Shown here: positions 27,888 through 34,024 of the stretch, in pieces
How the letters are laid out: each line of letters begins with the position of its first letter
Numbering within the stretch: position 1 is the stretch's first letter
Source of the DNA: Aquiflexum gelatinilyticum
GTDB taxonomy: Bacteria; Bacteroidota; Bacteroidia; Cytophagales; Cyclobacteriaceae
Reading direction: 5' to 3'
Assembly: GCF_024741135.1 (NCBI RefSeq)
Contig: NZ_JANSUY010000001.1
Location: 186,001-250,000, forward strand
DNA: 64,000 nt
The notes under the pieces: model-generated
Seen by the model: the letters and a program-made list of their open reading frames with translations, nothing else
Database searches by the model: none
What the model was told of the DNA's origin: nothing
Position numbers and translations under genes: made by a program

Positions 27888-28862
27888 TTATCCTCCGATA
27901 TTCCGATCTTTTCTTGCTTCCAAAAATGCATTCAATTCAGCCCTTGGCATAGGCAATTTGTTGTCAGGAAGGTTTCTGAGGTAATCATAAAACTCTTTGT
28001 TCATCTGTTCTGAATAATTGCTGTCGATCTGACCTGTTGTCCAATCTCCGGCCTTGTTGCGCATAATGCCATAAGTATGGCGCAGGTTGCTGATTTCGGC
28101 ATTGAGGACAATCTCGGCTACAAGGTAGGCCGGAAAGAAAAGTGTGCCGTAAGGGCTTGCAAATACCACGTCACCCGGCAAAACAGTCACATCCCCGATT
28201 CTGATCGGGGCATTGATGGAGGTTAACATGACTTCAGCAAGGGAAGAAGGATGATCACCCAGAATCCAACCATTAAATCCTTCCACCTTTTTGATCTCTT
28301 GGATATTTCTTACTGTTCCATAAAATACGACACCACGCTTCGTCTTGGCATAAATCGAATTGGCCAATCGGTCTCCGATAAGTGTCCCTTGCTCGACTTT
28401 GGCAAATCCGTCAGCCACATAGACATCACCGTCTTTCAGCATTTCGATCGGCCAAACATTGGATTGGGCTTTTTCGCCATGTCCCTCTGCCAAACCCACT
28501 TCCCGGATCAGATCCCCAAAATCAGGACGCTGAGGCATATATTGTGCAGTCACTGCCCTTCCTGTCATGATGGTGTTTTTGTCGGGATTGATCATCATCC
28601 AATCACCTTGGTACTGATTATTGAACTTATGGCTGCGCAATCCTCCCCAAGCGTGGGTCAAAACCACGCTTTTAAGCCTTTCCAATAATTCATCGGAAAC
28701 AAAAGGTCTTCCATCCGGCAGCCGCTCTCCTGTCCAACGTGATGTCAAGGAAATGATATATTCCCTGTCCATAGCTACCCTATCGTATTGGGCAAAGGAA
28801 GGAGTAAGTGTGCAGAGGATCAATCCTGCAAAGATCACAGCGGTCAATAGGTTTTTTTTCAT
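27888..28862 (-). CDS. Exported RraA-like family protein
   Basis: 324 residues. A cleavable signal peptide (KNLLTAVIFAGLILCTLTPSFAQ) precedes an RraA/HMG-aldolase-type fold: IMTGRAVTAQY, GDVYVADGFAKVEQGTLIGDRLANSIYAKTKRG (residues about 147-180) and INAPIRIGDVTVLPGDVVFA. In aldolase members the G..G..A..R..G stretch binds metal and the oxo acid. RraA-type proteins are normally cytoplasmic, so an exported one is unusual. It may be a 4-hydroxy-4-methyl-2-oxoglutarate aldolase-type lyase or a binding protein; the substrate is unknown. Confidence 0.8.
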   Translation of the reverse strand: MKKNLLTAVIFAGLILCTLTPSFAQYDRVAMDREYIISLTSRWTGERLPDGRPFVSDELLERLKSVVLTHAWGGLRSHKFNNQYQGDWMMINPDKNTIMTGRAVTAQYMPQRPDFGDLIREVGLAEGHGEKAQSNVWPIEMLKDGDVYVADGFAKVEQGTLIGDRLANSIYAKTKRGVVFYGTVRNIQEIKKVEGFNGWILGDHPSSLAEVMLTSINAPIRIGDVTVLPGDVVFASPYGTLFFPAYLVAEIVLNAEISNLRHTYGIMRNKAGDWTTGQIDSNYSEQMNKEFYDYLRNLPDNKLPMPRAELNAFLEARKDRNIGG

Positions 28863-28891
28863 GGTGTATGTTGGGTTGGAATTGGTTGAAA

Positions 28892-28979
28892 GGTTATCTG
28901 CTTCGCGTTGTCAGGTTGTCAAGTTCTGTGGTTCTGCTCACTGAAAACTGCTTACTGCGACTTTTCTCGCTTCTCGGCT
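28892..28979 (-). repeat. Composite short-repeat element, reverse orientation
   Basis: Read on the minus strand: two GAGA-type heptamers, four NCAGTNN-type heptamers (GCAGTAA, GCAGTTT, TCAGTGA, GCAGAAC), then AACTTGACAACCTGACAACG and GAAGCAGATAACC. The last part repeats almost exactly at 30362, 30466 and 34318. It lies upstream of the RraA-like gene in the 526-base gap before hisG. Confidence 0.75.
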
Positions 28980-29159
28980 TTTGTTTCTTGCATTCAGAAA
29001 TTTATTTGCATCCACCTTTCAAATACATAATCACACCATTATTGCCCAAGAAAACTATCAAATTTGGATAAATGGCTGATTTTCAAGGTAAGTGAGGAGA
29101 ATGAACCTACCGGAATTTTTTGGTCATCGTTACTCATTCAAAAAAACAATCCCGCCTTC

Positions 29160-29189
29160 TTGCTAGTTAAAAAGCCTGTATTAACTTTG
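29160..29189 (+). promoter_or_regulatory. Bacteroidota-type promoter for the his leader
   Basis: TTG at 29160-29162, a 19-base spacer, then TAACTTTG at 29182-29189, an exact match to TAnnTTTG. Transcription would begin around 29194-29197, at or just before the ATG of the leader peptide at 29198, so the leader would be translated from a nearly leaderless mRNA. Confidence 0.75.
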
Positions 29190-29197
29190 CCTCCGCA

Positions 29198-29281
29198 ATG
29201 AGCAGAAAGACTTTCTATAGCGTTTCTTTTTCTATTCCCACAATCCTCTGTGGGGTGCATCATTTGCATCATTCCTCCTAA
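29198..29281 (+). CDS. hisL: Histidine operon leader peptide (27 residues)
   Basis: ATG to TAA, 27 codons, beginning MSRKTFYSVSF and ending CGVHHLHHSS. Four histidine codons (CAT CAT TTG CAT CAT, 29258-29272) stand just before the stop. Histidine is rare, so this cluster directly ahead of hisG is the classical sign of ribosome-mediated attenuation: stalling at His codons when charged tRNA-His is short. A 7-bp hairpin with a T-run begins at the last His codon. The promoter lies only a few bases upstream. It is too short for normal gene callers. Confidence 0.78.
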   Translation: MSRKTFYSVSFSIPTILCGVHHLHHSS

Positions 29282-29294
29282 GGAGGAAATTTTT
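29272..29294 (+). terminator. Candidate his attenuator hairpin
   Basis: TTCCTCC, loop TAA (the leader stop codon), GGAGGAA, then ATTTTTG. The stem is short (7 bp) but perfect and is followed by five T. A ribosome held on the His codons would cover the left arm and prevent folding, so hisG would be read. A second hairpin, GGCTGT/ACAGCC, lies at about 29313-29336. Confidence 0.55.
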
Positions 29295-29388
29295 GACATA
29301 TCGCCCGCGGACGGCTGTTGGTATATCTTTACAGCCCTATCATCCAAAATTCTTATTGGCATTTTGATACTAAACGTATATTGCACCC

Positions 29389-30249
29389 ATGAATTCAATT
29401 ATCCGAATAGCCGTACAAAAAAGCGGCAGATTAAGTGAAGATTCTCTTAGCCTCATCAAGGAATGTGGCATCAAATTCTATAACGGTACAGGCAAACTCA
29501 AGTCTACTTCTACCAATTTCCCGATTGAATTTCTCTTTTTGAGAGATGATGATATCCCTGGTTATGTCGCTGACGGCGTAGCGGACCTTGGTATTGTGGG
29601 GGAAAATGAATTGGTTGAAAAAGACAAGGATGTACTTGTTCTCAAGAAATTGGGTTTTTCCAAGTGCCGTCTTTCTCTCGCAATTCCCAAAGGGGAAGAA
29701 TATGAAGGGGTAAGTTATTTTGATGGAAAAAGCATTGCTACTTCCTACCCAAAGATTCTTGGTGACTACCTCAAATCCCAAAATATATCAGCCGAAATCC
29801 ATGAAATCAGCGGTTCTGTAGAGATTGCACCAAGTATAGGTTTGGCACAAGGCATCTGTGATATTGTGAGTTCGGGTTCGACGCTGATGATGAACGGACT
29901 CAAAGAAGTGGAGGAAATCTTCAAATCCGAAGCCGTCCTGATCGGTAATAAATCTCTTTCTGAAGAAAAATTAGCAATCGTGGACAAATTGCTCTTTAGG
30001 ATGAATGCTGTCCAAAAAGGGAAAAGCAACAAATACGTTCTTCTAAATGCCCCTAACGCTTCTTTGGACAAAATCATCGCCCTGATTCCAGGAATGAGAA
30101 GTCCAACAATTCTGCCATTGGCAGAAGAAGGTTGGTCCTCTGTGCATTCGGTATTGAGCGAAGACCAGTTTTGGGAAAACATCGAAGGCCTCCGTGCAGC
30201 AGGTGCCGAGGGGATTTTGGTTGTACCGATTGAAAAGATGGTTGTTTAA
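29389..30249 (+). CDS. hisG: ATP phosphoribosyltransferase, long form
   Basis: 286 residues, the long form with a C-terminal ACT-like regulatory domain (residues about 210-286, VPIEKMVV at the end). Landmarks are IRIAVQKSGRLSEDSL at the start, VADLGIVGEN, and GSVEIAPSIGLAQGICDIVSSGST (residues about 143-166, the PRPP-binding loop). It catalyses the first step of histidine synthesis and should be feedback-inhibited by histidine. A leader peptide rich in His codons lies 107 bases upstream. The gap to hisD is 284 bases and full of short repeats. Confidence 0.95.
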   Translation: MNSIIRIAVQKSGRLSEDSLSLIKECGIKFYNGTGKLKSTSTNFPIEFLFLRDDDIPGYVADGVADLGIVGENELVEKDKDVLVLKKLGFSKCRLSLAIPKGEEYEGVSYFDGKSIATSYPKILGDYLKSQNISAEIHEISGSVEIAPSIGLAQGICDIVSSGSTLMMNGLKEVEEIFKSEAVLIGNKSLSEEKLAIVDKLLFRMNAVQKGKSNKYVLLNAPNASLDKIIALIPGMRSPTILPLAEEGWSSVHSVLSEDQFWENIEGLRAAGAEGILVVPIEKMVV

Positions 30250-30533: not shown

Positions 30534-31826
30534 ATGAAAACCATATACAACCCCACCAGGTCTGAATGGACCAAGGCCTTGCAGAGGCCAATTCAAAAGA
30601 CCAAAGCCATTGACAAAATTGTCAAGCCGATCATGCGCAAAGTCAGCAGAATGGGGGATAAGGCTTTGAAAAAATTTGCTTTGGAGTATGACCATGTCAC
30701 CATTAAAACTTTACTGGTCAGCAACGAAGAAGTGCTAAAAGCACGGGAGCAAATAGATCCAAAACTAAAGGAAGCCATTTTGGTGGCAAAAGAAAATATC
30801 GAAAAATTCCATGCTGCCCAGGCTCAGCCTGACCTCGTCATGGAAGTAATGGAAGGGGTGACCTGCATGCGAAAATCTGTGCCGATCCAAAGGGTGGGGC
30901 TGTATATTCCCGGCGGAACGGCACCGCTGTTTTCAACAGTGTTGATGCTGGGTATCCCCGCGAATCTTGCAGGTTGCGAAGAAATCGTTATCTGTACCCC
31001 ACCGGACAAAGAAGGGAATATCCATCCTGCTATATTATTCACAGCAGACCTAATCGGAATTGACAAAATCGTCAAAGCAGGTGGGGCGCAAGCCATTGCC
31101 GCAATGACTTTCGGTACAGAATCCGTTCCCAAAGTGGATAAGATTTTTGGACCAGGCAATCAATATGTCACAGCCGCAAAGCAATTGGCCACCAAAAAAG
31201 GAGTCGCCATCGACATGCCGGCTGGACCTTCTGAGGTGTTGGTATATGCCGACAGCTCTGCAATTCCTTCCTTTGTCGCTGCGGATTTACTTTCACAAGC
31301 AGAACATGGCGTGGATTCTCAAGTGATATTGGTGGCGAGCTCCGAAAAAGTAACCAAAAAAGTGCTCAAAGAAATGGAAGAACAATTGGAAAATCTGCCA
31401 CGAAAAGACATTGCCAAGCGTGCTTTGGACAACTCAGTAGCTGTGATCATGGGTAAAGAAGAAAATGCCATCGAGCTGATCAACGACTATGCACCAGAGC
31501 ATTTAATCATCTGTGTTGAAAACGAGGATTTTGTTGTTTCCCAGATTGTCAATGCTGGTTCGATATTTATTGGAAACTTCACACCTGAGTCGGCAGGTGA
31601 TTATGCATCCGGTACCAACCATACTTTGCCTACCTATGGCTATGCCAAAAACTACAGCGGAGTATCTTTGGATAGTTTTGTCAAAAAAATCACGTACCAA
31701 AAGATTACCGAAAAAGGAATCAAGAAGCTTGGACCCACCGTGGAAATCATGGCTGCGAACGAACTCCTTGATGCCCACAAGAATGCCGTTAGTATCCGCC
31801 TCAAATATTTAAAAGAGAAAAAGTAA
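30534..31826 (+). CDS. hisD: Histidinol dehydrogenase
   Basis: 430 residues. Typical stretches are RVGLYIPGGTAPLFSTVLMLG, KIFGPGNQYVTAAKQ, IDMPAGPSEVLVYAD, LLSQAEHGVDSQ (catalytic Glu-His pair) and YAPEHLIICVEN. It carries out the last two oxidations, histidinol to histidine, with zinc and NAD. The stop codon overlaps the hisC start (TAATG), so the two are translationally coupled. Confidence 0.97.
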   Translation: MKTIYNPTRSEWTKALQRPIQKTKAIDKIVKPIMRKVSRMGDKALKKFALEYDHVTIKTLLVSNEEVLKAREQIDPKLKEAILVAKENIEKFHAAQAQPDLVMEVMEGVTCMRKSVPIQRVGLYIPGGTAPLFSTVLMLGIPANLAGCEEIVICTPPDKEGNIHPAILFTADLIGIDKIVKAGGAQAIAAMTFGTESVPKVDKIFGPGNQYVTAAKQLATKKGVAIDMPAGPSEVLVYADSSAIPSFVAADLLSQAEHGVDSQVILVASSEKVTKKVLKEMEEQLENLPRKDIAKRALDNSVAVIMGKEENAIELINDYAPEHLIICVENEDFVVSQIVNAGSIFIGNFTPESAGDYASGTNHTLPTYGYAKNYSGVSLDSFVKKITYQKITEKGIKKLGPTVEIMAANELLDAHKNAVSIRLKYLKEKK

Positions 31827-32890
31827 TGGCTTTTGATATTCAGAAAATATTACGCCCCCATATCCGAAACATCAAACCCTATTCTTCTGCAAGGGATGAA
31901 TATTCGGGTCATGACGGCGTGTTTCTTGACGCCAATGAAAACCCATATGGATCGCTGACAGGGGAGGCTTTCAACCGATATCCTGATCCTTACCAACAGG
32001 AAATCAAATCCAAATTGGCCGTGATCAAAGGGGTTTCTCCCAAGCAGATTTTCCTTGGAAATGGTAGCGACGAAGCCATTGACCTGTTGATGCGCGCCTT
32101 TTGCAGGCCGGGAATAGACAATATCATTTTGCTTCCTCCTACTTATGGGATGTATGAGGTCTCAGCCTCGATCAATGACATTGCCATCAAAAAGGTAAAT
32201 CTTACTGAAGACTTTCAAATCAGACCAAAAGAAATCCTTGCAGCAACAGATGAAAACACCAAGATTATTTTTGTCTGTTCCCCCAATAACCCGAGTGGCA
32301 ACAAGATGAAAAGGGAAGCCATCCGTGAGATTCTGGTAGGCTTTGAAGGATTGGTTGTGGTAGATGAAGCTTATATCGACTTTAGCGATGAGGAAAGTTT
32401 TACGACCGAATTGGCAAATTATCCCAACCTTCTTGTGATGCAGACATTCTCTAAAGCTTGGGGACTTGCCAATCTCCGGATCGGGATGGCTTTTGCTTCA
32501 GAAGAAATTATCCGGATTTTAAACTTGATCAAACCTCCTTATAATATCTCCGGACTGACACAGGAAAAGGTACTTGCGTCTCTTGAGAAAGCAGATGCGA
32601 TAAGTAAAGTGGTGAAAACTATTTTGGAGGAAAGAGAACATCTTCAAAAAGATTTGGAAGGTTTGCCTTTTGTGAAGAAAATCTATCCTTCCCACGCCAA
32701 TTTCCTATTGGTGAAAGTTCCCGATGCCAAGAAAATGTATGATGACTTGGTGTCCAGCAAAATCATTGTCCGCGACCGCTCCAAAGTGATTTTGTGTGAA
32801 GATTGTCTGAGGATTACTGTAGGCACAAGGGAGGAAAATGAAGCTTTTCTAAATTCATTCAAAAAACTCGCAGGACAATCTTTGAACTAG
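31826..32890 (+). CDS. hisC: Histidinol-phosphate aminotransferase
   Basis: 354 residues, fold-type I PLP enzyme. VFLDANENPYGS at the start, NGSDEAIDLLMRAF, CSPNNPSGN, VVDEAYIDFS and the PLP lysine in MQTFSKAWGLANLRIGMA are all HisC landmarks. It converts imidazole-acetol phosphate to histidinol phosphate with glutamate. It overlaps hisD by one base and is followed by hisB after a 39-base gap that contains an AACCAAT tract. Confidence 0.96.
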   Translation: MAFDIQKILRPHIRNIKPYSSARDEYSGHDGVFLDANENPYGSLTGEAFNRYPDPYQQEIKSKLAVIKGVSPKQIFLGNGSDEAIDLLMRAFCRPGIDNIILLPPTYGMYEVSASINDIAIKKVNLTEDFQIRPKEILAATDENTKIIFVCSPNNPSGNKMKREAIREILVGFEGLVVVDEAYIDFSDEESFTTELANYPNLLVMQTFSKAWGLANLRIGMAFASEEIIRILNLIKPPYNISGLTQEKVLASLEKADAISKVVKTILEEREHLQKDLEGLPFVKKIYPSHANFLLVKVPDAKKMYDDLVSSKIIVRDRSKVILCEDCLRITVGTREENEAFLNSFKKLAGQSLN

Positions 32891-32915: not shown

Positions 32916-32929
32916 TTTATTTGATAACC

Positions 32930-34024
32930 ATGAAAAAAGCACTTTTTATCGACCGGGACGGCACCATCATCGTCGAGCCGCAGACGGATTTTCAGATCGA
33001 CAGTTTAGAGGATTTGGAGTTTTTACCTAGGGTAATATCCAACCTGAGAAAAATCGCTGAGGAATGTGATTATGAATTGGTCATGGTTACGAATCAGGAT
33101 GGCATGGGGACAGCTTCTTTTCCGGAAGAAAACTTTTGGCCAGCACATGACAAGATGATGCTCACTTTGGAAAATGAGGGGGTGAAATTCGCCAAAGTCC
33201 ACATCGACAAATCCTTTGAACATGAGAATCTCCCTACCCGCAAACCGGGAATCGGAATGCTCACAGAATATTTTGATGGCTCCTATGATTTGGCAAATTC
33301 CTATGTGATCGGGGACAGAAAGACAGATATCCAATTGGCCAAAAACATGGGAGCAAAGTCCATTTACATCGGAGATCCTGATGATAAAGCAACATTCTGT
33401 TCCAAAAGTTGGGATGAGATTTACAGATTCCTAAGGATGCCTGCAAGGATCGGTGAGGTTTTCCGCAAAACATCCGAAACAGAAATCCATATCCGGGTCA
33501 ATCTTGACGGATCAGGGAAATGTGAAATCTATACCGGGTTGCCATTTTTTGACCACATGCTCGAGCAATTGGGCCGACATGGTGGAACAGACCTGCTAAT
33601 CGAAGTCAAAGGCGACTTGCATATCGATGAGCACCACACCATTGAAGATACCGCTTTGGCTTTGGGTGAAGCATACCTGAAAGCTTTGGGAGACAAAAAA
33701 GGCATTTACCGCTATGGTTTCCTGTTGCCGATGGACGATGTGTTGGCGCAGGTGGCAATAGATTTTGGAGGCCGGCCATGGATGGTTTGGGATGCGGAAT
33801 TCAAAAGGGAAAAAATCGGAGACATGCCGACGGAGATGTTTTTCCATTTCTTCAAATCCTTTAGCGACACTGCCAAGTGCAACCTGAACATCAAAGCTGA
33901 AGGTACAAACGAGCACCACAAGATCGAGGCGATCTTCAAAGGCCTTGCCCGCGCCATCAAAATGGCTGTCGCAAAAGACACATCCGCCCTGAACCAATTG
34001 CCAAGTACGAAGGGAGTTCTTTAG
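32930..34024 (+). CDS. hisB: Bifunctional histidinol-phosphatase / imidazoleglycerol-phosphate dehydratase
   Basis: About 364 residues from ATG 32930 (a TTG at 32921 is also in frame). The N-terminal HAD phosphatase has [22 protein letters not shown] and [10 protein letters not shown]; the C-terminal IGPD domain has [14 protein letters not shown] and [14 protein letters not shown], both histidine-rich metal sites. It therefore covers the seventh and ninth steps of the pathway. It is the last his gene here: hisH, hisA, hisF and hisI do not follow. Confidence 0.96.

Follow-up and report, generated by a model that had tools for sequence, protein, structure and literature searches.

A histidine leader peptide with its stop codon in a hairpin loop: a candidate ribosome-sensing attenuator upstream of hisG in Aquiflexum gelatinilyticum

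Histidine leader peptides precede hisG in most of the upstream regions that we sampled, and they come in two architectures. One of these, frequent in the family of Aquiflexum gelatinilyticum, has a hairpin at the stop codon of the leader, does without a U-tract terminator and is found again for thr. Common to the his and thr leaders is a module made up of this stop-codon hairpin, an ACATAT-type element about 17 nt past the stop and a second hairpin (hp2). The window analysed here, a stretch of 64,000 nucleotides from A. gelatinilyticum (contig NZ_JANSUY010000001.1, positions 186,001 to 250,000), holds such a leader in front of the hisGDCB operon (Table 1). We propose, as a reading that we favour while granting it slightly less than an even chance, that this leader is a ribosome-sensing his attenuator, in which the stop hairpin would pause RNA polymerase (RNAP) and transcription would end without a strong U-tract, most likely through Rho or with the aid of hp2.

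The leader frame is translated as MSRKTFYSVSFSIPTILCGVHHLHHSS, with its TAA stop at 29279-29281, and its ATG (29198) lies 8 nt past the TAnnTTTG box. The first-pass annotation had called the promoter perfect; it is a good promoter, short of perfect since its -33 element is CTTG at 19-nt spacing and not TTTG. One A separates the hairpin stem from the T5 run. A terminator scan of 28700-29800 returned the stop hairpin as its sole hit, with 1.2 expected in shuffled sequence. The RNA from 29190 to 29294 folds better than its shuffles (z -3.25), and the stop hairpin itself is worth -8.6 kcal/mol. Genome-wide there are 103 matches to TTG-N17-21-TAnnTTTG-N2-12-ATG and 73 to its reversed control, so that a promoter plus an ATG proves little and was rejected as evidence by itself. 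As the scan and the promoter pattern make the evidence from the single sequence modest, comparison must carry the case. We also note a small hairpin, CCCACA...TGTGGG, inside the leader frame just 5' of the His codons (29237-29254), the CCAC...GTGG part of which is kept in some members of the genus.

Table 1. Features of the his leader region and operon, in window coordinates
Feature	Position	Strand	Remark
Bacteroidota-type promoter	29160..29189	+	TTG 29160-29162, 19-nt spacer, -7 box TAACTTTG 29182-29189
his leader peptide frame, 27 codons + TAA	29198..29281	+	ends HHLHHSS
Stop-codon hairpin TTCCTCC-TAA-GGAGGAA	29272..29288	+	7 bp, loop = stop codon
T5 run 3' of hairpin	29290..29294	+	kept in close relatives only
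ACATATCGCCC element	29296..29306	+	candidate RNAP pause between ATATC and G, 23 nt past first stop base
hp2, second hairpin GGCTGT ... ACAGCC	29313..29336	+	
TATATTGC, possible weak second promoter	29377..29384	+	just 5' of hisG
hisG, first gene of hisGDCB	29389..30249	+	NCBIfam TIGR00070 above cut-off
hisD	30534-31826		NCBIfam TIGR00069 above cut-off
hisC	31826-32890		NCBIfam TIGR01141 above cut-off
hisB	32921-34024		NCBIfam NF003937 above cut-off

HisG searches yielded 235 distinct hisG upstreams, of which 173 nonredundant ones remained after removal of those more than 80% alike over the last 220 nt. They comprise 117 sequences of the window's family, 14 of other families within the order and 42 that a phylum-wide draw supplied, and all counts given here are to be read with related genomes still weighing in them after the 80% cut and 117 of the 173 coming from the window's own family. 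The named relatives in that family are Cyclobacteriaceae, and the HisG of the window is 98% identical to that of Cognataquiflexum. A His leader, defined as an open reading frame of 8-45 codons with at least three His in 8 codons, was found in 151 of the 173 upstreams; shuffled sequences gave a mean of 5.9 and a maximum of 9, and the reverse strand gave 6. By origin these are 110/117 in the window's family, 6/14 in the other families and 35/42 in the phylum-wide draw; among the 22 upstreams without a leader, one (L108) has only 68 nt of sequence. Most of the first 20 residues differ among five genomes of the genus; the xHLHHSS end is almost unchanged, apart from single replacements of His by Asn. 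These comparisons support the identification of the window's frame as the putative His-sensing leader of hisGDCB, as the first-pass annotation had read it. A start a few nucleotides past the promoter box, which would make the transcript nearly leaderless, is borne out as well: a TAnnTTTG box stands within 30 nt 5' of the leader start in 104 of 151 leaders, an upper count because the choice of start gave a bonus to starts with a box, compared with 12 of 1034 control windows, and the spacing from box to start is 4-10 nt in 77 of the 104.

Two further searches concerned other leaders. In the window's own genome 12 matches to CAYCAYNNNCAYCAYN{3,9}TRA were found (control 2), and every one except the his leader overlaps an open frame of more than 130 codons; a second His leader was accordingly rejected. 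At other loci, in several families, leader frames carry a [CA]ATAT element about +18 from the AUG, often as His-Ile or Asn-Ile at codons 7-8. This element is tied to the AUG (+18 in 23/43; sd 2.5) and not to the box (sd 4.4), which argues against an element fixed by the promoter, and it is absent from the window's own leader.

The hairpin with the stop codon as its loop also recurs in relatives. A hairpin of at least 5 bp surrounds the stop codon in 79 of 151 leaders, against 20.2 in shuffled sequence. In a scan of all axes, 39 of 151 leaders, most of them of the window's family, have at least 6 bp on an axis no more than 1 nt from the stop centre, against a mean of 4.6 and a maximum of 12 for 29 background centres. 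Thus both the His codons and the hairpin, which the earlier annotation had advised seeking 5' of hisG in related genomes, are recurrent, and a chance origin of leader and stop hairpin is rejected by these counts. Among 43 leaders that lack the His-Ser tail and have their last His within 3 codons of the stop, 11 carry a hairpin of at least 5 bp there (background mean 2.1, maximum 6). The hairpin is built from differing sequences, such as ATTGCT-AATA-AGCAAT (L163), TGTGC-AATAA-GCACA (L256) and ATCGCC-GATA-GGCGAT (L238). In two loci (L014 and L024) the stop codon lies 3' of the hairpin, so that there it is the hairpin, and not the exact position of the stop, that is kept.

Of the 151 leaders, 67 were sorted into a stop-hairpin class and 41 into a U-tract class, while 12 showed both features and 31 showed neither, a mismatch-tolerant division that depends on the chosen thresholds, as the last two groups show. 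The stop-hairpin class accounts for 62 of the 110 leaders in the window's family and for 2 of 35 in the phylum-wide draw, with 5 more there in the group with both; the suggestion that the design may be common in the phylum therefore holds for the His leader and fails for the hairpin. Between the last His codon and the stop lie, in the median, 2 codons in the 67 stop-hairpin leaders and 8 in the 41 U-tract leaders, as expected if His codons must adjoin the hairpin in the former class. As an observation apart, several short leaders of the group with neither feature, among them L174, L177 and L182 with 13-15 codons, have a His run at the very end and no hairpin or U-tract above the thresholds; as a class, these leaders have strongly C-rich RNA past the stop.

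Could the stop hairpin and T5 together be a small but complete intrinsic terminator, which a ribosome halted at the final His codons would mask directly? This was the model of the first-pass annotation. In the window the only candidate for a U-tract intrinsic terminator before hisG is the 7-bp hairpin with its A-T5, an arrangement common to the five genus genomes (L001-L005). In 44 loci out of 67 the hairpin of this class starts at offset 1 or 2 of the final His codon. With a footprint of about 15 nt, a ribosome positioned on His codon two, three or four would reach into the 5' arm. T is also somewhat raised at positions 2-6 past the hairpin (0.39-0.47). Over the whole 10 nt past the hairpin, however, T is not enriched (a count of 3.18 across 74 loci, where background gives 3.53), and tracts with at least 5 T in 8 nt are present in 15 of 62 loci, against 10.5 in shuffles (range 3-18). 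The T-run that was noted with the hairpin is thus present and conserved among close relatives only; with T at background in the class, the T5 of the window is a local feature, outside the general design. The hairpin is likewise weak beside the trp terminator of the same genome (-19.9 kcal/mol, T6), and both the trp and the ilv-type leader of this genome use canonical U-tract terminators. A passage of PMC4824070 describes the E. coli terminator tR2 placed 5 bp past a stop codon, where termination dropped from about 90% to below 10%. A ribosome finishing at the loop stop codon would, on that result, mask the window hairpin too, and not only a stalled one. The reduction of the attenuator to a minimal intrinsic terminator is therefore not sustained, and we consider it unlikely.

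The motif ATAT[CT]GCC occurs within 40 nt past the stop in 24 of 151 his leaders, with 0.1 expected from shuffles, and 21 of the 24 belong to one clade. Many relatives show the order stop hairpin, ACATATCGCCC, second hairpin, and in the Algoriphagus clade a ACACACCC-like sequence is joined to a longer second hairpin. The 37 stop-hairpin loci that fall outside two clades lack the flank that is first AU-rich and then GC-rich. In the Algoriphagus clade (for example L066, L069 and L118) the second hairpin has a conserved loop, GATGACAGGGATTC, which is unusual for a plain terminator stem.

The same arrangement is found at thrA. On contig C12 of the window's own genome (about 73500-73710, minus strand; L348/L354) the thrA leader reads MFFTANELINLNLSLAGDSCVLGGCTSMFFTTTTITG; ACGGG-TTAATT-CCCGT stands at its stop and is followed by CATATAGACCCC and, further on, by GGTCC...GGACC. 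The arm composition of its stop hairpin is reversed relative to the his copy. A Thr/Ile leader was detected in 23 of 45 nonredundant thrA upstreams (shuffles: mean 3.2, maximum 5). Stop hairpins of at least 5 bp are present in 17 of these 23 (background mean 1.8, maximum 8) and a ATATNGCCC-like element in 9. The shorter motif [ACG]ATAT at +12 to +31 is raised in thr leaders (10/23; 1.6 shuffled), trp leaders (8/14; 1.2) and stop-hairpin his leaders (21/67; 5.6); it is not clearly raised in U-tract his leaders (10/41; 5.5 shuffled, maximum 11) and not raised in the remainder (2/31; 3.2).

An alignment of 14 thr and 18 his leaders was hand-picked from the clades that carry the element (pools of 23 thr leaders and 41 in the his clade A), and the conservation within it is therefore partly selected. 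Its six core pairs have 95.3% of cells in standard pairs, against 57.9% in shuffles and 48.7-66.2% in slid versions. The covariation score lies above all 500 shuffles, whereas two of the five covariation measures, pairs changed on both sides (5) and further pair types (8), equal the shuffled values. The compensatory changes represent few evolutionary events and for the most part a single difference that separates two groups. We built a covariance model from this alignment, in which both leaders of the window's own genome, his and thr, are included. In 5/5 genus genomes it detects the his and thr leaders with E below 1e-12; the other matches listed have E of 0.003 or worse, with 150 of about 1300 candidates per genome scored. 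The parts, their conservation and the his/thr module are thus a matter of observation.

The downstream sequence invites a second explanation, in which the leader would be a miniature three-element attenuator with the stop hairpin as pause or protector, a GCCC:GGC pairing as antiterminator and hp2 as terminator. The 5' arm of hp2 could indeed pair alternatively with the GCC of the ACATATCGCCC element; RNAalifold on the 32 his and thr leaders predicts this GCC:GGC pairing (columns 36-38 with 51-53), which uses the same GG as hp2, and in two his clades, each folded separately, the consensus of RNAalifold is hp2. The pairing is nevertheless short, two of its three pairs hardly vary, and no U-tract directly follows hp2 in the window or among the clade members listed. 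Both pairings lie clear of the stop hairpin and of a ribosome positioned at the stop, so that no evident coupling of the ribosome to the choice between them emerges. We regard a three-element attenuator as decidedly unlikely.

An action on hisG translation was also weighed. A Shine-Dalgarno role of GGAGGA is rejected, as the thr copy has its arms reversed, with CCCGU on the 3' side, and no conserved start codon is seen downstream among the clade members listed. Against the favoured attenuator, folding without the 5' arm revealed no consistent antiterminator partner for the 3' arm in the downstream RNA of the 14 sequences listed per clade; individual pairings of the 3' arm appear in a few loci, such as L005 and L008. 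Control after transcription, with the stop hairpin and hp2 setting hisG translation or stability, would have to act over about 100 nt from leader stop to hisG, with no conserved overlap with the hisG start seen, and the conservation of the His codons points to sensing by the ribosome. The variant in which hisG is expressed mainly from its own promoter, with the leader playing a minor part, draws on TATATTGC at 29377, which may be a second promoter yielding a leaderless hisG transcript: TAnnTT[TG][GC] occurs in the last 30 nt 5' of hisG in 23 of 151 loci and 4 times in each of the two preceding 30-nt windows. Taken together, post-transcriptional control and a dominant hisG promoter seem to us very improbable. 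Similar counterparts of TATATTGC are present in the Belliella and Algoriphagus clades.

How might the transcript end before hisG without a strong U-tract? Past the stop, the C>G skew is 0.30 in stop-hairpin leaders and 0.45 in those with neither feature, compared with 0.0 in U-tract leaders (p 4e-14 and 2e-10, values that ignore kinship). The contrast is the same within the window's family (0.30 and 0.45 vs 0.0), remains when unpaired positions alone are counted (0.62 and 0.67 vs 0.25) and persists outside the two main clades (0.39); upstreams without a leader have 0.03 for hisG and 0.07 for thrA (22 each). Rho is present in 29/29 genomes, the window's own included, and is our best guess for the termination route of the stop-hairpin class. 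Rho termination in the window itself is weakly supported, because its own C skew of 0.20 is ordinary among the 36 intergenic upstreams of the window, which have a median of 0.09 and reach 0.67, and because early leader frames are C-rich in every class, most of all in U-tract leaders (0.6 vs 0.45). The other leaders of the genome have skews of 0.18 (trp), 0.16 (ilv) and 0.48 (thr).

From these elements we infer the pausing, the masking, the direction of control and the termination route of the favoured ribosome-sensing attenuator. A ribosome would load on the AUG a few nucleotides from the transcript start and translate up to the HHxHH codons. RNAP, slightly ahead, would be held between ACATATC and GCCC by the stop-codon hairpin, as at the E. 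coli hisL pause, until the arriving ribosome melts the hairpin and thereby releases the polymerase. When histidine is scarce, the ribosome would sit on the His codons and cover the hairpin and nearby RNA, and transcription would proceed into hisG. With plentiful histidine it would end at the UAA and depart, and the transcript would be stopped before hisG, in the absence of a strong U-tract terminator most likely by Rho acting on the bare leader or with help from hp2. A more specific reading, possible and clearly short of probable, is that the window's family carries a distinct module without intrinsic terminator, composed of a near-leaderless leader, a stop-loop hairpin, a ACATATNGCCC-type pause element and hp2, which serves both his and thr alongside the classical trp and ilv attenuators of one genome, with Rho ending the transcript. 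The pause element would then, as one part of this possible whole, be placed where a ribosome at the stop would touch RNAP. If so, the stop codon would act as the pivot of the sensor: with the ribosome on, read-through; with the ribosome off, pause and termination.

Attenuation of the his operon in its classical form has been described before, as have the pause hairpin of hisL and leader peptides with no obvious terminator; what is new is the recurring class of stop-hairpin leaders and the module that his and thr have in common. Our literature search, mostly of open-access papers, turned up neither a described his leader from Bacteroidota nor a class of stop-codon-hairpin leaders that lacks U-tract terminators. 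PMC9723704 mentions briefly strong clues of leader control 5' of amino-acid operons in Bacteroidota, and PMC7366714 mentions small open reading frames reminiscent of leader peptides. The same papers give leaderless transcripts as 5.5% in F. psychrophilum and 5' regions under 10 nt as about 3.7% in B. thetaiotaomicron (PMC9723704, PMC7366714), so that starts close to the box would gain a use in a phylum where short 5' UTRs are reported as rare. The leaders raise the testable question of how attenuation ends a transcript without a U-tract terminator, and that of whether a stop-codon hairpin and a pause site form a minimal sensor from ribosome to polymerase.

How does this leader relate to known systems? 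The hisL pause hairpin of E. coli, CCTGA-CTAGTCTT-TCAGG, has 5 bp, lies directly 3' of the His codons and has the stop TAG in its loop; its pause base lies at the junction of GATGTGTGCT and G, 22 nt past the first stop base. The his leader of the window resembles it in the His run at the leader end, in the hairpin that comes next with the stop in its loop and in a candidate pause at +23, beside +22 in E. coli. With the stop in the loop and this spacing, the stop hairpin occupies the place of the classical pause hairpin and not that of the terminator. By this analogy it looks like a ribosome-sensed RNAP pause element and not like a complete tiny terminator. The differences are a spacer of 14 nt between hairpin and candidate pause (11 in E. 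coli), the lack of a strong U-tract terminator and of strong competing hairpins among those found downstream, the nearly leaderless start, HHxHH in place of seven His, and a different sequence. Rfam RF00514, the His leader, has no match at the gathering threshold and none at E up to 10 in 29100-29450, so that no known Rfam family accounts for the leader. PMC9291695, in the part consulted, describes the hisL pause hairpin with a G-10 Y-1 G+1 consensus, and a figure legend there marks the leader stop codon; at the candidate pause of the window Y-1 and G+1 are present and G-10 is absent. The missing G-10 and the longer spacer count against the proposed pausing, as does the narrow occurrence of ATAT[CT]GCC and of the AU-rich then GC-rich flank.

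Within the same genome, the trp leader (L275, C1, about 760500-760681; MKTTQNTYWWWHWTSKIEEPVVVA) and an ilv-type leader (L297, C17; MFQIVTPLSFIILICNN, read by eye) are classical, with strong hairpins. They share with the his leader the amino-acid codons, an ACATAT 19-20 nt past the stop and, for trp, a box near the leader start; they differ from it in the strong hairpins followed by T6-T7 and, for trp, in codons that lie further from the stop. Leader attenuation of the tna type is Rho-dependent. The his leader of the window is like Rho-dependent leaders in that the regulatory codons adjoin the stop, no intrinsic terminator is seen and the RNA of its class past the stop is C-rich and G-poor; it is unlike them in its stop-codon hairpin and in its own unremarkable C skew. 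Leaders without terminators have been described for cys genes of mycobacteria (PMC1262725, in part). In attenuation of the pyrBI type, as outlined in passages of PMC4824070, a closely following ribosome blocks a hairpin behind RNAP, as we propose for the window; there, unlike here, the terminator lies inside a 135-bp leader gene and UTP is sensed. Finally, rescue of backtracked RNAP by collision is reported to be functional at 28-29 nt (PMC11711091); a ribosome that stands on the leader stop of the window would have its P site about 26 nt from the candidate pause.
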